From the NCBI RefSeq assembly GCF_964355755.1, contig NC_092673.1:22263001-22327000 (forward strand): a DNA stretch of 64,000 nucleotides, given 5' to 3'. Made by a program: the position numbers and the translations under genes. This document shows, one piece after another, positions 11,250 to 54,932 of this stretch (its first letter is position 1; each line of letters starts with the position of its first letter). The DNA is from Antedon mediterranea (lineage: Eukaryota; Echinodermata; Crinoidea; Comatulida; Antedonidae). Under the pieces are notes generated by a model, which searched no databases, was not told where the DNA came from, and saw only the letters and a list, made by a program, of their open reading frames with translations.

Positions 11250-14200
11250 TTATTCGATGTTGTTAGCCCGCTTGAATGATGCTTTCTTTTGTCGTACTCG
11301 GTCGGTGCGTTGTTGCTTGGACAGCTTTGCACGGGTCCATCTACATAACAAAAAAAATAAAATTTAATGACAATTTTAAACGAAATGAGACAAGAACATC
11401 AGCAACTAAGGTAATAAATATGTTAAGTATTTTTCAGACGCCAAGTTATAATCAAAGGAGTTCATCCGGTAATTCCAGCATTTACTTGGCTTAATCATCA
11501 CAAAATAAAAACAAATTCAACACAATTCTTTCTTTAGCATCATAAATTACTTCAATTAATTGGAGCACATATCTCATAGCAGGATTAAAAGATCTATGTT
11601 TTGGATTCCTTGGAAGATTAGCATGCAGGAACAATGATTATGAATTAAAGACCCGATAAGAATATTTTAACTATTTCTACATCTAACTGATGTACAATAT
11701 TAAAACAGAGAGACTGTTATTACCAAGTCTTTGCATTGGTCTCCCAATACTTTCAGCCACCTAAGCTTAAAATTAACTTATCCGGCTTTACTGACCATCG
11801 TCCTTACCATTGCTTAGATGGACTATTGTTTGTCTTTGATACGGTGGTAAATTGCTGTGACCTTTGCATTTAATTGGGTTGTAGTATTTTCATAACTATT
11901 TACTTACCGTTTTTGTTTGTCTGGCTTTGGCTTGGCAGTGGATACATGAACAGGATCAGAGCGGATGGAAGCATGCGCCTTCTTGTACATTTCTTCCATC
12001 TATTTAAAATAACAATGTAATAACAATGTATATCCATTCCCATATACTTTAAAATTTATTTATGATTACAGAAACTTTGTTTTTCACTAAAAGTTGATTT
12101 TATCCAGGTTGGTCTTACAATTTGCCAAAATACCTTAAATTCAATTTCAACCAATTAACGCTAAAAATTAAGTTAGCTCAGTAGTCATTATACAATCACA
12201 GTATATTTCTTAATTTAAAAACACTTTAAATTTTTTCAGACGCCACTTGAACATCAGGGTGTTTCAGCCGGTAATTCCAGCGTTTAAATGGCTTAATCAT
12301 CATCAAAAACCTATAAAGAATACCACTGTGATAATGCAATAGCCAAACATGTATTGAAACAAGTATTTAATGAAACCTGAACACTGTTATGTTTCATGTT
12401 TAAACTATAAACAATGTCTACCCTACTTCTGTCTGAGCCACACATTCCATTTGTCGAAATTCTATTTCTAATTATACACACATTTTACTTACCGAATCAG
12501 CTGAAACGCCAAGCTTGATGAAACGAGAGAACTGGCGTTTGTAAGCATCTTCATCTTCCTCCTCCAAAGATTTCATGTAGTCTGATACATGACCGCCAAA
12601 GATGTGCTTGCGGTGTACATCCGCGTTGAATTCACCGCTTTCTTGGTCATAACCGGGGAAACGCTTGTTGCTATAAATATACATGCAAATTGTTATATTA
12701 GTCAAAACCAATAATTCGCAAAACACAGAAGGTCTGAAAGGTATTGCCATTCAGAAAGGGTTAGGAAAGCATTACCAATATATAAAGCAGTACAAAAGAC
12801 TTGTGATGCAGTTTTTTCAGACGCCACGTGATCATCAAAACATTTCAGCCGGTAATTCCAGCATTTACATGGCTTAATCATCATGAAATACTTTAAAAAT
12901 TGATGGAGGTTTAGCTTAGCAAAGTCTAGCAAACCCACCGTCTTGGTTCAAATCCTATCTGGTATCTCAATATCCACCCCAAAAGACATGTAACATGTTT
13001 TGTGTATATCCTATTAACAGATAACACCTTTTGGAATTGGTAATAAAGTTTGTTATTGGCAATATGCCTATATAACCAATAATCTACCTGTATGGGATAT
13101 CCAGTCCACCGTCTACAGCTCCCTTTAGAGCTCCAAAGACACGAGCTCCAGTGGTTGTTCTGGCCAGACCAACGTCAAGGAAGCAGCGGAAAGCACCTGG
13201 TTGTCCCTCCTCACTGTCTACGTAATAGTCCTCTCCAGTTACTTCATCTACCCCTTTGTAAATCTCGTCCAGCTTAAATTTATTGAGGATCTGCAAAATC
13301 AAATTTAATATTGTTTGATTTCATGCCGGATAACTGTATATTGGGAACTACTACTATTGGGAACAGCCTACCCTAAATCGCGTTACAAAATATTCAATTT
13401 CCCAAATAATGCGAATTCTGTAGATAGTATTTTCTATCCATATTTTCAAATGCTAAAACCTTACATGTGTTTCTTATATACATAGAGGTACTCCAATTTT
13501 CTGTCAAATTTGTGGTGTGACCTGTACAAACATTAGTTGACTTTACATGAAAGTTTTTCCTTAATTGAAATGTTTGTTTTTCAGACGCCACTTGAACATC
13601 ATGATGTTTCAGCCGGTAATTCCAGCGTTTAAATGGCTTAATCATCATCAAAACCTTATAAAAGAATACTACTGTTTTACAGTAGAATTTTGTTGATAAG
13701 ACAAACATGGTTTAAAATACACACTATTTTAATAAATTAAAGCATTTGCTTTATGCTTGGATCATTGATAAGTTTGTGATAATGATAATTTACCCTTCTT
13801 GCAATGAGAAGTCCTGTGCAATAAGCTGCAGCATAGTTGGTCAACCCGACCTTGATGCCATACTTGGGTAGTTCATGTGAATAAGCTGATGCTATAATAA
13901 TGTCTCCCACAATTCTGGCATACGCTATCTGGAAATGAAAAAAAAAAGAACCTTGTTGAAAAGTGTTCTGCCAGTTAAAAAGTATCATCCTCTATTTGTG
14001 GAATTTTTTTCAGACGCCACGTTATCATCAAAATATTTCAGCCGGTAATTCCAGCATTTACATGGCTTAGTCATCACAAAATAAATGGTTGGTATGGCTA
14101 TACATTGAGTATTGCTGCACAAACACCCAAAATCCCTACAGTATCTCATTCACTCTCAACTCTACACTCTTTACAGCTCTGAATAATATACTTCAGTAGT

Positions 14201-15684
14201 GGTAAAGGCGTATTCACTTATTACACTTATATCACTCACAGTAATTATTTTAAGAATTCTCCTTAATTGGGTAACATTTAGAGAATTTTTAAATTATGGT
14301 GAAATGGTATGGGTTTTTTTCCTGCTGTCCAAGAAAATTATTATTAATATGGCCACAGACATAGTACCAAATGACAGTACAAATAAGCTGTAATGTTACC
14401 TGACATGTGATATCTTTGTTGGTGAATCGCACGATCAAACGATATTTAGGGGTGTTGTACTTGTTCTTGTCTTGAATAACCAAGCGTTTGCGAGCATAAT
14501 AATCAGTTTTTCCTTGTCGTCTACGCTTGAATTTCACTTGATACCTCTTGAAATAGGCCTTATTCTTCACCACTTTTACAAACCCCTAAAAAACGAACGT
14601 ATATACTTATAAACTCAATATCAATTTCATATAAATATGGCAAAGGGGAACTACAGCAAGAATATAACATTACATAATCCAAGTTGTTTTCAGACGCCAC
14701 GTTATCATCAAAATGTTTCAGCCGGTAATTCCAGCATTTACATGGCTTAATCATCATGAACAATTGTTGAATTACGATATCAAATGTGTATGACCTAGCC
14801 ATACGCCATTTTCACGATATGGAATGGAAGACATCTTCGATTGAATTGGTGGTAGTTCACTTTCGCACCTGTCTCAACTCAAAATTTGTTAAATAACTAT
14901 CATGAATACCACACCATGATAGAATTAGGCCACGTAATCACTTTTATGAAGGTCTGATCAATAAAAAAGAAACAAATAAATCCTTTCAATTGATGATTTT
15001 ATAGACATGTTACTCGCACACTGTTCGCATACTCCGTTTTGAAGTGGTTGAACGTTTTCGTTTCTACAGAGCGCAAAAAGAGGTACTATATAATCACAAT
15101 GTTACACCCACCGGGACCAGGGAAGTGTAAACCAACACTAACAGAAATAACACAGCAGGTTTTATCAGTCACCATAAACTCATGGTACCCCCTTTAATCA
15201 CCATCAATATCTTTTCAGTTGGGTAGCAATTGGGAAGAGAAATTTGGCAAATATGCACTGTATGCTACAGTCAACCTGGATGAGGTGGCGCTATAACAAA
15301 TTTATATAGGATTCCATCCTGTTCTACTAATTAAAGTCCCAAACAAAATCATAAAATATTTCTTTCTGCAATTATTGCATCATTTTTATTTGCACAAACA
15401 TGTCAATTAAACATTGGGAAAATATCCTTTTACGCCGTACATTCGGTTCAACGCTGTCTTATGTCGATAGAGGTAACTCTCGGCACACGTTTGAACATAT
15501 TACATAGCCTTCCTACATTTAGCAATTCATTAACAGTGAATACCAGGCTTAGGATCAATAGGGAAATCTATCCTTAAAATTCCGTTTAATCTCGCACCGA
15601 ATTGCGTATTCCACATTGAGATAGACTAAACTATATATTTAATCAATAGTACGTGTTGTTATTTTTTACATTTAATCTTACCAT
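11250..15684 (-). CDS. RPL5: 60S ribosomal protein L5 (uL18)
   Basis: Minus-strand exons, in transcript order: 15684-15682 (the ATG alone), 14585-14400, 13928-13794, 13290-13088, 12670-12493, 11999-11908 and 11340-11250 (stop TAA). They total 888 nt, 295 aa (human 297). The sequence starts [20 protein letters not shown] and keeps the family blocks [96 protein letters not shown] and [16 protein letters not shown]. The tail is KKASFKRAN. The protein binds 5S rRNA with RPL11 in the 60S subunit central protuberance and in the MDM2-inhibiting 5S RNP. The first coding exon carries only the ATG, as in vertebrate RPL5. Every intron hosts one box C/D snoRNA. Confidence 0.98.
11430..11506 (-). ncRNA. 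Box C/D snoRNA copy 6, in the last RPL5 intron (degenerate)
   Basis: Box C GTGATGA at 11501-11495 and box D CTGA at 11437-11434 on the minus strand, closed by short T/A flanks. The guide GCTGGAATTACCGG is intact, but box D' has become ATGA and the second guide region differs (AACTTGGCGT). It may be losing function. Confidence 0.75.
12232..12308 (-). ncRNA. Box C/D snoRNA copy 5, RPL5 intron 5
   Basis: Box C ATGATGA at 12303-12297, D' CTGA after guide CGCTGGAATTACCGG, C'-like TGATGTT, box D CTGA at 12239-12236, and a T/A terminal stem. The D' guide is complementary to 18S CGGUAAUUCCAGC. Confidence 0.9.
12813..12888 (-). ncRNA. Box C/D snoRNA copy 4, RPL5 intron 4
   Basis: Box C ATGATGA at 12884-12878, guide TGCTGGAATTACCGG before D' CTGA, C' TGATGAT, guide ATCACGTGGCGT before box D CTGA at 12820-12817. 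All boxes intact. Confidence 0.9.
13577..13653 (-). ncRNA. Box C/D snoRNA copy 3, RPL5 intron 3
   Basis: Box C ATGATGA at 13648-13642, guide CGCTGGAATTACCGG before D' CTGA, C' TGATGTT, guide TTCAAGTGGCGT before box D CTGA at 13584-13581. Closest relative is the copy at 12232-12308. Confidence 0.9.
14006..14082 (-). ncRNA. Box C/D snoRNA copy 2, RPL5 intron 2
   Basis: Box C GTGATGA at 14077-14071, guide TGCTGGAATTACCGG before D' CTGA, C' TGATGAT, guide AACGTGGCGT before box D CTGA at 14013-14010. Groups with the copies in introns 1 and 4. Confidence 0.9.
14686..14761 (-). ncRNA. Box C/D snoRNA copy 1, RPL5 intron 1
   Basis: Box C ATGATGA at 14757-14751, guide TGCTGGAATTACCGG before D' CTGA, C' TGATGAT, guide AACGTGGCGT before box D CTGA at 14693-14690. 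By the D+5 rule the modified base is the U of 18S GCGGUAAUUCC, the site I associate with human Um627 (SNORD65) and yeast Um578 (snR77). The site naming is from memory. Confidence 0.9.
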
Positions 15685-36655: not shown

Positions 36656-38599
36656 CTAATAATTGAATATTTTTACATTATTGGATGCAAAATCTGCGAC
36701 AGCTAGTTTTCTAGACCTGTTTGAAATCGCAGCGACTCCAGCAGGAACATCTAAGCCATCCTCATCCTTATCTATTCGTTTTATAAAAGTACCATTTTTA
36801 TCAAATAATTGTAGTTTGTGATAACTGGATACTATTAAATTCTCATCCATATCTATGGTTATACCACAAGGTCCATATATTTTATCTTCTTCACCATAGC
36901 TTATGAGGATTTTTATCAGCTTATCTTCAGCATTGAACATTTGTATTCTATTATTTCCAAATTCGGTAACTAACACATGACCATCCATTGTTACAGCAAC
37001 ATCTTTTGGTTGATTCATTTTACCTGCTTCACTACCTTCTGAGCCTATCCTACCCAGTAGACTACCATTATCAATATTGAATTTAAACACACAGTGTTCA
37101 TCCTCGTCTGCTACATACACTATCCTGGATTGTGTGTTCAATGCCAGACCCTGTGGACTTTTTAAGACACCTTCCCCAAATGATCGAATTGTCTTAAATT
37201 TCTTATCACACATTACAACATTCTTATTTGATTGTTTATCACTATAAACCATTTTACCATCACCTATTTGTTTCATATGTCCTACATTTGTAGACATCTT
37301 CTTCCTCTTAATAAATGTACCTGATTGATCGAACTTTAACACCTCTTTACTATCACTTGAAACTAATAGAAGTCCACCTGCATCTACCATTACATCTACG
37401 ACTTTATGTTTCTTTTTATCTTTTTTATAATCTTTTATGTTATAAATGGTTTGTACACATCCAAGTGGTTCCACCTTGATACTCACTGGTGACCCCTCAA
37501 TATGCTCATCTCCATCTTTGATGTCCATCTTCCAATCTCCTTCTATGTTGCATTCACCATTTATTTTATATTCTCCATTTCCGTGGTATTCTACCTGGGT
37601 AGCTGATATATTTCCAGATGAGTTTTCCAGAGTTATTGCTAATTTAAATGTAATACTACTTGCCGCTACTATTACTTTAACTGCAAATGGTTGTCCTTTT
37701 GTCACTGTAATTGACTCATCATCTTTGGAAACCTTGTAAATACCAGTCTTGGTTATCACAAGTTTACCAATGCCTTCTTTATTCACCAACTCCACCAGTT
37801 TAGAAACAGGAAAGAAAGTTTGTTGAATACTTGTTATTGGGTTAACAAAATCAGGACTAGAAACCCTCTTCTTTACCGTAAGGATAGTTGAATTGTGTGA
37901 TGTAAATTTTTCCATTTCTTCTGGTTTATTTATCATTTTGTTGATTGATGATGTCAGCATGTTTACTTCATTCAGCATTGAAAAAGTATCTTTACATTTG
38001 TCGTCAACGGGTTTAATCATTTCATAGTGATTCTTGTCAACAACTGCATTCATTTCCGTGACTTGTCTTTTTACTTTTTTGATGAGTTCATTTGCCTGGA
38101 GTTCAATTGCTTTCTTGCATGAAGTGACATTTGATTCTAAGTCTGATTTTTGTTTAGAGATGGAATCTAATTTTTCCTTTAACTTTCTTTTAACCTCCTC
38201 AGCTAGCTTCGTAGATTTAGTAACGCTTGCATTAAATTCATCTACGGCATCTTTCATCGGAACTACGTCATGTTTATTAATTAGGCAACGAAGAACAGAC
38301 TTGCAATCTTCACAGTTGTAAGTGCGACAGGATTTACAGTAGTGCTCTATGAATTTGTCATGATCAATGCATAGCTTTTGTCCATCCATACATTCCTCCT
38401 CATTTCTATCAAGTGTGTATAGTGGATGATCTTTCAATGCAGGGATTATTTTGTGATGTTTGATACATTGTCGACACATATACATCGAACAATCAGAACA
38501 GTAGTAATGTGGTTGACAATCACAACTTGAACATTTTTCTGGTTTTTCAGATTCAATCTTCTTTTTGTCAAAGAATTTGAATGCTTTTCCTGTTGACAT
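36656..38599 (-). CDS. B-box / coiled-coil / filamin / NHL-repeat protein (TRIM2/3-like, no RING)
   Basis: Single 647-aa open frame. Residues about 23-49 hold a Cys/His zinc cluster (C-x2-C, YYCSDC, CRQCIKHH). Residues about 75-115 form a second B-box (CIDHDKFIEHYCKSC ... CEDC ... NKHDV). Residues 120-260 are coiled coil. About 285-385 looks like a filamin/ABP280 repeat (GEYKINGECNIEGDWKMDI, EGSPVSIKV). About 390-647 holds NHL-type beta-propeller repeats (SPQGLALNTQSRIVYVADED, QPKDVAVTMDGHVLVTEFGN, GPCGITIDMDENLIVSS, ending VADFASNNVKIF). TRIM-NHL proteins normally begin with a RING that gives E3 ligase activity; none is present here. Without it the protein may act as a scaffold or binding protein (inference). 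ATG is preceded directly by an AG acceptor, so an upstream exon is possible. Confidence 0.88.
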   Translation of the reverse strand: MSTGKAFKFFDKKKIESEKPEKCSSCDCQPHYYCSDCSMYMCRQCIKHHKIIPALKDHPLYTLDRNEEECMDGQKLCIDHDKFIEHYCKSCRTYNCEDCKSVLRCLINKHDVVPMKDAVDEFNASVTKSTKLAEEVKRKLKEKLDSISKQKSDLESNVTSCKKAIELQANELIKKVKRQVTEMNAVVDKNHYEMIKPVDDKCKDTFSMLNEVNMLTSSINKMINKPEEMEKFTSHNSTILTVKKRVSSPDFVNPITSIQQTFFPVSKLVELVNKEGIGKLVITKTGIYKVSKDDESITVTKGQPFAVKVIVAASSITFKLAITLENSSGNISATQVEYHGNGEYKINGECNIEGDWKMDIKDGDEHIEGSPVSIKVEPLGCVQTIYNIKDYKKDKKKHKVVDVMVDAGGLLLVSSDSKEVLKFDQSGTFIKRKKMSTNVGHMKQIGDGKMVYSDKQSNKNVVMCDKKFKTIRSFGEGVLKSPQGLALNTQSRIVYVADEDEHCVFKFNIDNGSLLGRIGSEGSEAGKMNQPKDVAVTMDGHVLVTEFGNNRIQMFNAEDKLIKILISYGEEDKIYGPCGITIDMDENLIVSSYHKLQLFDKNGTFIKRIDKDEDGLDVPAGVAAISNRSRKLAVADFASNNVKIFNY

Positions 38600-42385: not shown

Positions 42386-42554
42386 TAACTATTATCACTC
42401 AATGAATAGTGTGCGCTTTTTAATTGTTAATATTAACGGTAACAGTTTTAATGAATATGTTAATTTTGCTGTTATAAGGTAGTGTAAACTTTTTTTACAG
42501 TTGCTGTAATGACATTTGAAAAAAAAACATTAGTTCAGCTTTGTTTGTTTTTTT
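42386..42554. repeat. Inner unique sequence of the fold-back element, present in three direct copies
   Basis: The TATCACTCAATGAATAGTGT ... TTAATGAATATGTTAATTTT ... GTAGTGTAAACT ... ACAGTTGCTGTAATGACATT stretch recurs in the same orientation at about 47200-47350 and in part at 46983-47100. The copies bracket the inserted LINE. Confidence 0.75.
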
Positions 42555-43441
42555 TTGGTAGTTAGTGCTACCACTAACGAACCTGCTATAATTGCAGAGG
42601 AATTGAATACTTATTTTACAAATGTTGCAAATAATATAACGTCAAACCTTCAGTTTACTGATGTTGATCCATGTTCATTTCTTAAACAATGTTCTTCTTT
42701 TCATAATGTTAGTACTGATTTTGTATTGAAAGAAATCTCCGAACTGAATTCTGCGAAATCTGCTGGACACGACGGTATTGATGGTAAGCTTGTTCGGACG
42801 GCAGCCCCCATCATCGCACCTTTCCTCACACAGATTATTAATACTTCCATCTCCAGTCAGAGCTTCCCTCTCTCGTGGACAATTGGTAAGGTTACTCCCA
42901 TCTTTAAATCCGGTAACAAACATCTACCGGATAACTACAGACCTATATCTGTGTTACCTATCATGTCTAAGGTGATTGAGAAGGCCGTCGGCATGCAAGT
43001 ACTGGAATATCTTTCTTCAAATAATCTTCTCTGCCCTAACCAATCTGGATTTCGTCCCACATATTCTACAATTACTGCTATCACTAAAACTCATGACAGC
43101 TGGATCCACAGTATAAATGAAGGTAAAATCATTGGTTCAGTTTTTATTGATCTAAGGAAAGCGTTTGATCTAGTAAACTACGAAATTCTGTTACGTAAAC
43201 TTCCCTTTATGGTCTTTCCGAATCGGCTGTGAAATGGTTTACAGCCTATCTTACTGGACGTCAGCAACATGCCTGTTACAAATCAACTATATCGTCATCT
43301 ATTAATTTCAACGCTGGTATACCTCAAGGATCCAACCTTGGACCACTATTATTCTCCATATACATAAATGATCTCCCCAATTTTTTATCGTACTCTTCTA
43401 TGGATATGTTTGCTGATGATACCATAATTTACAATTCTAGC

Positions 43442-45286: not shown

Positions 45287-46371
45287 CTAGCGATAAGGTT
45301 GACGATATTGTAACCAATCTTAATTTTGACTTCGATAAAATCTCCACTTGGCTTCTAGCTAATCGTCTAGCGCTCAATACTAAAAAAACTGAAGTGATGG
45401 TAATTGGAACGCAACAAAGGCTTTCTTCACTCTGGCCTATAAATGTTTCTATTAGCAACTTTACCTATCAAACAGGTCACCCAACATAAGAATCTTGGCA
45501 TCATTCTAGACCATCATCTTACTTTTATTCCGGACGTTGATAAGTTGTGCAACAAATTAAGTTCCTCTATCTCCAACCTCGCCCGAACTCGAAAATTTGT
45601 CCACCAAGCTACATCTCTTATATTATACAATGCTCTTGTCTTACCTCATATTGACTATTGTTGTTCTATCTGGGGCTCACGAGCACCACTCGTTGCTAAA
45701 ATCCAGAAACTTCAAAATAGAGCTAAAAGAGTTATTCTGAAAGTTCACCCTCATACCTCATCCCACCTTATTGATAACACCCTTTCTATCTCATCCGTTT
45801 CTCAACGTTATCAGTTTCAACTTGGTTGTCTCGCCTATCTGGCTTCCATCAATACCGTTCCGGATTACATCAGTCGCATGTTAACCAGGACTCAGCCCGG
45901 AGGTCGACCAACTACCAGATCCATCTCTAATTGTAATTATATTATTCCTCGACCTTCATTAGAGATTTTTAAACAATGTTTCAGTTATAAAGCGCCTATG
46001 TATTTTACTATAATTCCTAAAATCATTCGACAATCTGAAAATATTATTTCCTTTAAACGTGAACTTAAAGAATTTATTTCCAGTTAATATTGTTTGTACC
46101 ATGTATATATATTTTATCTGTCAACGATTTTAACTCCTATTGAATTTTATATAATCATTGTAAATTTATAGGCCTATTATGTATATTTTTACGTCATTTG
46201 AATATTTAATATTTTATGTGTTGTACTGTAGCCTATGTATGTTTTATCGAGTGCCCTGAATGATCAGTTCTATTTGGAATTGGATAGGCTACCCTCAATA
46301 AAGATGGTAATGAAATCAAATTAAATTAAATTTAAAAAAAAACAAACAAAAAACATTTAATTGGCAAATTC

Positions 46372-51711: not shown

Positions 51712-53406
51712 TCAATCTCTTAGTTTTGGTGGTTGCTTGCAAATCCGTTTTGGTCTGTCGTGTATCGCTAATGGTGGTAATTTTCTTGTTTCCGTTTGGG
51801 GTTCTTGATCCTTGTTGATACTAGTAGTTAGTTCTTGTCTTGGTGTCTCTACGTTTTGTGGCGGTGGTGGATTTTCAGATAATTGTGGTTTGTTGTTTTC
51901 TTGTGTGGCTGGTGGTACTGGTTTCGGTTTATCTGGTTTGATATTTATTCTGTCTCTTGTATATTGTGATCCGGATGCTGTTTGAACGGTATATTTTCTT
52001 GGTGAGTGTTGGGTGATTACGGTAGCTGGTGTCCATGTCGAATTTGGTTTCGTTTGGAATCTACATGGTTGTCCGATGTAGATTGATGTACTTGTGTCCG
52101 TAGGTTGTCCTTCGTATGCGGCTGTTCTTTTTTTAAGGTTTTCTCCGTATTGTTTTGCTACGGAATTTGGCGTGTTATTTATGGCAGGTAGGTTGGTTTT
52201 GATATTCCGGTGTCCGAACATTAGTGTGAATGGGGACGGGATGTCTGTTGAAATCGGTGTGTCTCTAAGAACGCATAGTATCTCGTTCATGTCTGTAAGT
52301 GTGCTCTTTTTTAGAAGTTGTTTTACAGTGGCAATGTTTCTTTCTGCTCTGCCATTTCCGGATTGGTGGTATGGTGCGCTTGTGGTATGAATTATTTCAT
52401 GTTGTCTGCAATATTCTTCAAACTCACTGCTCACTAGCTGTGGCCCATTGTCAGACATCATTGTCTCTGGATATCCGAACATTGAAAATGTTTGGTCTAG
52501 TTTTGTGTATACTGCCTTGCTATTTGTGCTGCTCAGCTTATCAACCCAGACGTATGCCGTGTAATAGTCGACACATATGAGAAAGTTTTGGTTCTGGATT
52601 TCGAACAAGTCGATTCCGATACGCTGCATTGGCGTGTTGGCGTGTATTGGGATTATTGGTGGCTTCTTTTGATTTCTCTGGTATGTCTGACAGAGGTCAC
52701 AATCCGTTATCATTTGCTCTATATCAGCGTTCAATCCAGGCCAATATAAGCTCTGTCTCGCACGGAGGCGGGTCTTCTCTATTCCTTGGTGCTGCTTATG
52801 CAGTATTCCAAGGAGTTTCTTTCTCATGGATGTTGGGATAACGATTCTTTGTCCTTTGATGACAATTCCATCATATATGGCCAGTTCTGATCGATGCTGC
52901 CAGTAGGCGTGCGTGAATTTGTTGCATTGGTTCTTTTGCGTTGGCCATCCCTCTACTATATATGGGATGAGTGCTTGTAGGACAGTGTCTGTTTTAGTTT
53001 TCTCTCTGATATTGTCGATGACAAAAGGTGCCATGTTTGTGACTTCATGGACTTGTACATTCATGTCAGGATAAGTGAAGGGTTCACTTTTGGTCTCGAT
53101 GCATCTGGATAGACAGTCTGCTATAGGTACTTGTTTTCCTGGTACGTATCTTATCTTGCCATTATATCCTTGTAGTTGTAGCATTAGTCTTTGTAGACGC
53201 GTTGGCATTTTAGAGAGGTCTTTCTTTTGGATGCTTTCCAGTGGTTGGTGGTCTGTATGTATTGTGAAGTGTTTCCCAAACACATATGTTCTAAAATATT
53301 TCACAGACCATACCACTGCGAGTAGTTCCCTCTCGATGTTGCTATAATTTGATTCAGCATTTGTTAGTGACTTTGATGCATAGTGTACTGGTCGGTCATT
53401 TTGCAT
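51712..53406 (-). CDS. Gypsy pol fragment: RNase H and integrase
   Basis: 564-aa frame. It opens in RNase H (HYASKSLTNAESNYSNIERE, HTDHQPLESI, GKQVPIADCLSR). It then has the HHCC zinc finger of integrase (HKQHQGIEKTRLRARQSLYW ... CDLCQTYQ) and the DDE core (GIDLFEI ... MMSDNGPQLVSSEFEEYC ... HQSGNGRAERNIATVK). The C-terminus is proline/lysine-rich. These domains would degrade RNA in hybrids and insert the cDNA. The frame is separated from the upstream protease frame by a frame change near 53406. Confidence 0.92.
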   Translation of the reverse strand: MQNDRPVHYASKSLTNAESNYSNIERELLAVVWSVKYFRTYVFGKHFTIHTDHQPLESIQKKDLSKMPTRLQRLMLQLQGYNGKIRYVPGKQVPIADCLSRCIETKSEPFTYPDMNVQVHEVTNMAPFVIDNIREKTKTDTVLQALIPYIVEGWPTQKNQCNKFTHAYWQHRSELAIYDGIVIKGQRIVIPTSMRKKLLGILHKQHQGIEKTRLRARQSLYWPGLNADIEQMITDCDLCQTYQRNQKKPPIIPIHANTPMQRIGIDLFEIQNQNFLICVDYYTAYVWVDKLSSTNSKAVYTKLDQTFSMFGYPETMMSDNGPQLVSSEFEEYCRQHEIIHTTSAPYHQSGNGRAERNIATVKQLLKKSTLTDMNEILCVLRDTPISTDIPSPFTLMFGHRNIKTNLPAINNTPNSVAKQYGENLKKRTAAYEGQPTDTSTSIYIGQPCRFQTKPNSTWTPATVITQHSPRKYTVQTASGSQYTRDRINIKPDKPKPVPPATQENNKPQLSENPPPPQNVETPRQELTTSINKDQEPQTETRKLPPLAIHDRPKRICKQPPKLRD

Positions 53407-54350
53407 CAGTACGGCTCCAAGTCCCTTTTGAGATGGTCACATTGGATCGTTATCTCCTCTTTGCTATCGAAATACGCAAGTGTTGGGGCGTCTTGGATTC
53501 TCTTTTTTATTTTTGTTAGTGCATCGTCGTGTATGTTTGTCCACTTGAAGACTGAGTCTTTCTGGAGAATACTTCCTCTTTTTTGTCTGTTTTTTCTTTC
53601 CGACACTTCGCAAACATCAAAGTGTCCATTGCAATCGATGCATTGATCGTCGCATAAAATTCTAACAATTCCCAGTGCTTTGCAAAGTTTCAGTCCGAAT
53701 AGGTTATTCCCATAGCTTGACACGTGGAATTTAGTTTTGTTCACGATGTGACTATTATGTTCTGTGTCAACCGTTATCTCACCATGGTTCTGAAATTTTC
53801 TACCTCCATATCCAGTTAGGATTGTGTTGGTTTTCTTGATCGTGTACTGTTTCCCAAACAGCTGTGTATAGGTTTTATAATTGATAAGGTTGGCTTGCGC
53901 ACCTGTATTGTCTTTGCCTCGAAGGAGCATTTGTCCATTCGGTGTGGAGAGTTTTATTGTGGCAAGTTGGGTGTCTTTGCCATCGATATCGTTGAATTGA
54001 ATTTCTCGGATGGTGACTTCTTCGAACCCGTAATTTGTTGGGTCATCCGAGTCTTCTATTGTAATCTCCTGCGTGCGACGATACTGTTTCCCTTTGTTTG
54101 GGCGCTTTTGATTGTATTGTCGATCCTGGGTCGTTTTGTTGAATTGTTTTGCTCTACACTTCCTCGCCCAGTGATTGCTCTTGCCGCAATTTTTACATTC
54201 TTTTCCAAATGCGGGACATTGTCTGGACGGATGATCTGTACCGCAGTTGGAGCAGTTTTTGATCAGTTTTAATTGACTGTGGCGTTTACCATAGTTGGTG
54301 TTTTGTTTTATTTCCTCAACAGTGGTGCCAGTTTTTGAAACTCTTTGCAA
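53406..54350 (-). pseudogene. Gypsy gag end and protease, with most of the reverse transcriptase deleted
   Basis: Two zinc knuckles (CSNCGTDHPSRQC and CKNCGKSNHWARKC) are followed by an aspartic protease (DNTGAQANLINYKTY ... LTGYGG). The protease passes after LGIVRIL, by a short unrelated stretch, into KWTNIHDDALTKIKKRIQDA, which lies at the thumb/connection just before RNase H. The palm with the Y/F-x-DD motif is missing. A frame disruption at the end separates it from the RNase H frame. Confidence 0.85.
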
Positions 54351-54932
54351 TTCGTTAAATTGTTTATCGGCCGCTTCTTTGGACTGAATGTACTTGATAG
54401 CGTCGCTATGTGTGTAAGTCTTCGCTTGACGGAAGAGCTTTTTCTGTACATCTTCAGAGTTTGTGCCGAATTTGATTGCTTCAAGAATGTGCTGGTCGTG
54501 TTGCTCATCGGGGTATTCACACTCCTTTAATAGGATTTCAACGCGAGCAACATACGCATCTATGCTTTCCTTTTGTTTTTGTTTAAAGGCTTCGAAAGTT
54601 CCAGCGGACTAGATTAAAATTTGTTTTTGGTTGAATAAACGCTTCAAATTTTTCCCAGTGTTTCGGGAGGTTGTTTTTCTCTTGCTCAGTAAGAGACCAT
54701 CCACGTCGGATTTTCATTGCCTTTTCTCCCATCCACAACATGACATAGCTAACTTTTTGCTCTTCTTGTATTGTGGATAGGGGCCCTGCAAAGGCCATTT
54801 CAACTGTTTCCTTGAAGTGTTTAAAAATTGTTCAAGTACACTTGGTGAGTCAAATTCCACTTTGGGCATCGTTACCCCCTGGAGTCCTAAAGGGGCTATT
54901 ACAGGTTGATTTGTAGGCTCTGTTTCAGCCAT
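54308..54932 (-). pseudogene. Gypsy gag, broken into overlapping frames
   Basis: Three minus-strand frames overlap: 54932-54714 (starts MAETEPTNQPV), 54798-54583 (WMGEKAMKIRRGW, HWEKFEAF) and 54520-54308. Together they resemble a capsid region upstream of the zinc knuckles, but at least two frame shifts or indels separate them. Confidence 0.7.

Follow-up and report, generated by a model that had tools for sequence, protein, structure and literature searches.

Each of the six introns of the RPL5 gene of Antedon mediterranea carries one copy of a guide RNA unit, an observation that is real and striking in its extent. The copies lie between positions 11430 and 14771 of the 64-kb stretch of DNA that was analysed as a whole (the window), and we consider it very probable (about 0.92) that these intronic box C/D snoRNAs are this animal's SNORD65/snR77-type guide, duplicated within RPL5. 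This reading is drawn from the host gene, the placement of the copies, their boxes, their complementarity to 18S rRNA, a covarying helix and the absence of other convincing copies, all of which were read from sequence.

The RPL5 gene and its six intronic units

The minus-strand gene at 11250..15684 was rebuilt exon by exon, and its spliced translation showed that it is a complete RPL5/uL18 gene with an uninterrupted product of 295 aa. It consists of 7 coding exons and 6 introns, the latter all with GT-AG borders (6/6). The product matches Pfam PF17144 (E=5e-87) and PF14204 (E=4e-19), and its closest PDB chains are those of vertebrate RPL5 (E=4e-147). A genome search found a single intact RPL5 locus, plus three degenerate fragments elsewhere. 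By a repeat search, an 86-nt unit was detected in six copies, all on the minus strand, which is the RPL5 strand, with identities of 76-95% to the reference copy. The features are as follows.

15684-15682, 14585-14400, 13928-13794, 13290-13088, 12670-12493, 11999-11908, 11340-11250, minus strand: RPL5 coding exons
1096, 471, 503, 417, 493, 567 nt: lengths of RPL5 introns 1 to 6
14686-14771, minus strand: snoRNA repeat unit in intron 1 (box C-D 14690..14757), boxes all intact
14006-14091, minus strand: snoRNA repeat unit in intron 2 (box C-D 14010..14077), boxes all intact
13577-13662, minus strand: snoRNA repeat unit in intron 3 (box C-D 13581..13648), nearest to the intron-5 copy
12813-12898, minus strand: snoRNA repeat unit in intron 4 (box C-D 12817..12884), SNORD65 match below the gathering threshold
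12232-12317, minus strand: snoRNA repeat unit in intron 5 (box C-D 12236..12303)
11430-11515, minus strand: snoRNA repeat unit in intron 6 (box C-D 11434..11501), guide intact, D' AUGA, C' UUGAUUA
14740..14746, minus strand: internal helix 5' strand GCCAUGU (intron-1 copy)
14723..14735, minus strand: D' guide core GCUGGAAUUACCG (intron-1 copy; same in all six), antisense to 18S CGGUAAUUCCAGC
14696..14702, minus strand: internal helix 3' strand ACGUGGC (intron-1 copy), at the D-guide position

Every intron (6/6) contains exactly one unit in sense orientation. The length-weighted chance that six randomly placed copies would fall one per intron is 0.011, and the chance that all six would share the host strand is 0.016. 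The repeat search and the rebuilt gene thus bear out the initial annotation, which had described six related units of about 75 nt, one in each RPL5 intron and on the host strand. The arrangement is that of intron-encoded snoRNAs: a sense unit within a spliceable intron, one in each, in a gene whose ORF is intact. Each copy would be freed from its own intron after splicing and then trimmed to a snoRNP of about 75 nt.

A motif scan and Rfam searches revealed no other C/D-like units in these introns, and neither SNORD21 nor SNORA66, the snoRNAs of vertebrate RPL5, was found in them. In other animals RPL5 hosts SNORD24 (sponge; PMC3412847) and U21 (chicken; PMC2653536); a literature search for published echinoderm RPL5 snoRNAs returned nothing relevant.

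The presence of a copy in every intron of a single gene could also mean that their main role is in cis, with RNA structure or snoRNP assembly in the introns influencing how RPL5 is spliced or expressed, and intronic snoRNAs with effects on host splicing have been published, for example SNORD2 in EIF4A2 (PMC10324135). This is very unlikely in our view, because the units show no long complementarity to the RPL5 pre-mRNA (the sole match of >10 nt is a palindrome within the intron-3 unit), their distance to the 3' splice site varies from 80 to 289 nt, and the part that is conserved is the rRNA guide.

Box architecture, 18S guide and internal helix

The copies are about 75 nt in length, and their minus-strand sequences align without gaps across the snoRNA. 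From 5' to 3' the order is a terminal stem, box C (RUGAUGA), a spacer of 29 nt in all six copies ending in GCUGGAAUUACCGG, box D' (CUGA), a 6-nt loop, box C', an 11-nt spacer, box D (CUGA) and the stem. Boxes C and D are found in 6/6 copies, with a terminal stem of 3 to 5 bp. In the intron-1 copy this stem is UUGUU/AACAA and reaches about 5 nt beyond the box C-D span on each side; it covaries, with a G-C pair in that copy where the others have U-A. The internal boxes C' and D' are canonical or nearly so in 5/6 copies, while those of the intron-6 copy are degenerate (C and D being retained), so that its predicted activity is doubtful. The complete C, D', C' and D architecture proposed earlier for five copies is therefore confirmed, with the intron-6 copy as the exception, and it supports the assignment of the units to box C/D snoRNAs. 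Single-sequence folding of the copies was not exceptional (z -0.5 to -2.2).

The 14-nt D' guide shows no change among the six copies, and it pairs with 18S CGGUAAUUCCAGC across 13 nt, as had been claimed before. In the window, 6 occurrences of the guide 13-mer were counted where 0.0007 would be expected. By the D'+5 rule, the predicted methylation falls on the U of CGGU within 18S GCGGUAAUUCC, a position that supports its earlier equation with human Um627 and yeast Um578. The same site is known as Um627 in human, where its guide is HBII-135 (SNORD65), as Um578 in yeast (guide snR77), as Um580 in Arabidopsis (guide snoR77Y) and as Um571 in Dictyostelium (PMC8817022, PMC5199042). The guide would thus direct 2'-O-methylation of the Um627-equivalent U in this animal.

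The target is present in the genome of this species, where AGCCGCGGUAAUUCCAGCUC has 16 exact matches, with an 18S context wherever the surrounding sequence was read; one inspected match is truncated and joined to a satellite, so that 16 is a count of matches and not of functional genes. At about 12032501-12033228 on C2, an 18S rDNA fragment abuts a long tandem array of CCGTACTAG, and some of the 16 matches are therefore truncated.

Alignment of the six copies further revealed a 7-bp internal helix adjoining boxes C and D, which is an addition to the initial annotation, where it was missed. Alignment columns 21-27 pair with columns 65-71 in 6/6 copies, and no other 7-bp helix is common to all six. 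Three variants occur (GCCAUGU/ACGUGGC, GCCAUUU/AAGUGGC and GCCAAGU/ACUUGGC), in which both strands have changed at two positions with pairing kept. An all-paired 7-bp helix with at least two compensatory pairs was obtained in 0/3000 column shuffles; since the copies are close relatives, the independent covariation events are few (two helix positions). In the helix, the sequence that follows box C pairs with the sequence that precedes box D, which makes the long C-D' spacer shorter. Before box D there is no invariant stretch longer than UGGCGU from which a D-guide target could be read, and most of UGGCGU is engaged in the helix. As the helix takes up the D-guide side, the snoRNA is probably of the single-guide type, with the D' guide alone at work and held in position by the helix.

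The distribution of changes also bears on whether the copies are still in use. It could be supposed that most of them are inert, one or two being functional and the rest recent pseudogenes that have not yet decayed. The degenerate D' and C' of the intron-6 copy fit this supposition, as do the likeness of the copies (79-96%), some of which may be young, and the unequal expression that is common within C/D families (PMC8178906). Nevertheless, only 2/32 box and guide columns are variable compared with 13/27 of the columns outside boxes and helices (Fisher p = 0.0003), so that the guide was kept in 6/6 copies and the boxes in 5/6 while the spacers diverged, and both helices changed in a compensatory rather than a random manner. 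We therefore judge widespread inertness to be unlikely, and prefer the reading of a duplicated guide whose copies are maintained.

Family assignment and genome-wide search

The 354-Mb assembly was searched by BLAST, by an exact guide+D' pattern and with Rfam models. Since the units gave no match at Rfam gathering thresholds, permissive searches were adopted. These returned snoR77Y (RF01178), snR77 (RF01181) and SNORD65 (RF00571), all of clan CL00057. The best snR77/snoR77Y score was 37.1 bits, compared with gathering thresholds of 50-52, and that of SNORD65 was 30.1 compared with 41. The intron-6 copy matched snR77 at 37.1 bits and the intron-4 copy matched SNORD65 with E=4.9e-5 in a 106-base search, both below gathering. 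Across the 354 Mb the six copies take ranks 1-6 for snoR77Y (best 37.1 bits, E=0.003). The covariance check suggested by the initial annotation thus gave a divided answer: the six copies lead the genome-wide ranking for snoR77Y, but none reaches a gathering threshold.

The units share with SNORD65, snR77 and snoR77Y the 18S target U, the D' position of the guide, a guide of about 13 nt, the long C-D' spacer and the C/D boxes. They differ in copy number and host: RPL5 contains six, and the chicken counterpart, whose D' guide is likewise 13 nt long, occurs once in a different transcript (PMC2653536). They also differ in the 7-bp internal helix, of which the displayed Rfam consensus sequences give no evident sign. 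Judged by these sequence features, the units appear to be a functional equivalent of SNORD65/snR77, not a threshold-passing member of the family, and they are a probable orthologue.

Both the consensus unit, used as a BLAST query, and the exact guide+D' pattern returned these six places alone, and no seventh convincing copy was found in the 354 Mb, in an assembly that is partly masked and by searches that are lossy. RPL5 therefore appears, within the limits of masking and of lossy searches, to hold this animal's whole guide set. One-mismatch guide+D' places elsewhere and other weak matches were rejected as chance, with model scores of 16-18 bits at most compared with 101-110 for the copies. 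Guide matches with 2 mismatches on C4 are due to the satellite GCTGGCATTACTGAATGA, which forms many 31-bp-spaced repeats over about 3 Mb (about 16.3-19.4 Mb) and is unrelated to the snoRNA.

That homology between the introns ends close to the unit might be taken to indicate a mobile or satellite-type repeat that resembles a snoRNA by accident. The complete C/D architecture, the target match, the covariation and a genome free of further convincing copies have largely refuted this explanation.

Probable duplication within RPL5 and its precedents

Homology between the RPL5 introns is limited to about 75-80 nt, except for introns 3 and 5, which are 94% identical over 99 nt and have about 20 nt of upstream flank in common. 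For that pair, the common flank is fitted better by duplication at the DNA level. The copies fall into the groups 1/2/4, 3/5 and 6 and not into groups of neighbours, a grouping suggestive of repeated rounds of copying or conversion within RPL5; the extra copies would have been produced in this way. As for retroposition, inspection by eye showed no clear target-site duplications, and the 3' A-run is explained by the terminal stem.

RPL5 is not the only gene of this genome with intragenic duplication, as RPS8 contains two SNORD46-like copies (C1:4238964-4239048 and 4239833-4239918, minus strand) that are 94% identical and lie in apparently neighbouring introns. Their Rfam scores are below gathering, but their D guide is conserved and their terminal stem is strong. 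The pair is like the RPL5 set in pointing to the same process within a ribosomal-protein gene, and unlike it in having two copies only and belonging to another guide family. No further SNORD46-like copies were found elsewhere in the genome, nor did inspection of RPL4 and of the second S8e-domain locus show comparable copies.

The initial annotation had called it unusual for a ribosomal-protein gene to have all its introns filled, which was overstated. A nearly identical arrangement is known from Xenopus laevis, in which U17 occupies 6/6 introns of RPS8 (PMC7601244, citing Cecconi et al. 1994). The two cases are alike in that one snoRNA is repeated, once per intron, throughout a ribosomal-protein gene with six introns, and in its action on 18S rRNA; they differ in that U17 is an H/ACA RNA for 18S processing, in another host gene and another animal. 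Moreover, C/D snoRNA families usually grow within one host gene (PMC8178906, PMC2653536), and human C/D families lie mostly in different introns of one host, which has been attributed to recombination (PMC8178906). Chicken U18 paralogues are likewise C/D guides in several introns of a ribosomal-protein gene (RPL4 introns 2, 5 and 6) through intragenic duplication, but they occupy only some introns and their target site is in 28S rRNA (PMC2653536). The frog case and the routine nature of intragenic C/D duplication limit the novelty of the RPL5 case. What distinguishes it is that all introns are occupied by a methylation guide and that the guide has an internal helix. With it, a methylation guide joins the rare examples of a single snoRNA in all introns of a gene, such as Xenopus U17/RPS8, and it provides an example of an internal helix that has evolved by compensatory change among the paralogues of one genome.

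If the copies are expressed, processed and active in methylation, the additional ones may raise the dosage of the guide. A more far-reaching and tentative proposal, which we think possible but rather doubtful, is that the only Um627 guide of this lineage moved to RPL5 and was copied to all introns, that its D-guide side has become a structural helix positioning the D' guide, and that its output is tied to RPL5 transcription. If this is true, guide output would be stoichiometric with RPL5 transcription, up to six per mRNA. The six copies in this one host can be distinguished by their D'-C' loops, which read AACATTT, AATATTT, AACATCA, AATGTTT, AACACCC and ACTCCTT for introns 1 to 6. The gene is therefore a natural setting in which to ask what intron position, the quality of the boxes and the number of copies contribute to guide dosage and 18S methylation.

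The remainder of the window contains several other features. A minisatellite at 913-2351 is open in several frames (TNTP/LLLIP-type repeats). By eye, an intronless 647-aa ORF at 36656-38599 (minus strand) is TRIM-NHL-like, with a B-box and NHL repeats, and the ORFs at 51712-54608 (minus strand) are retrotransposon-like, with a gag zinc knuckle, RNase H and an integrase-like region. More reverse-transcriptase-like ORFs lie at 42534-43232 and 45443-46087.
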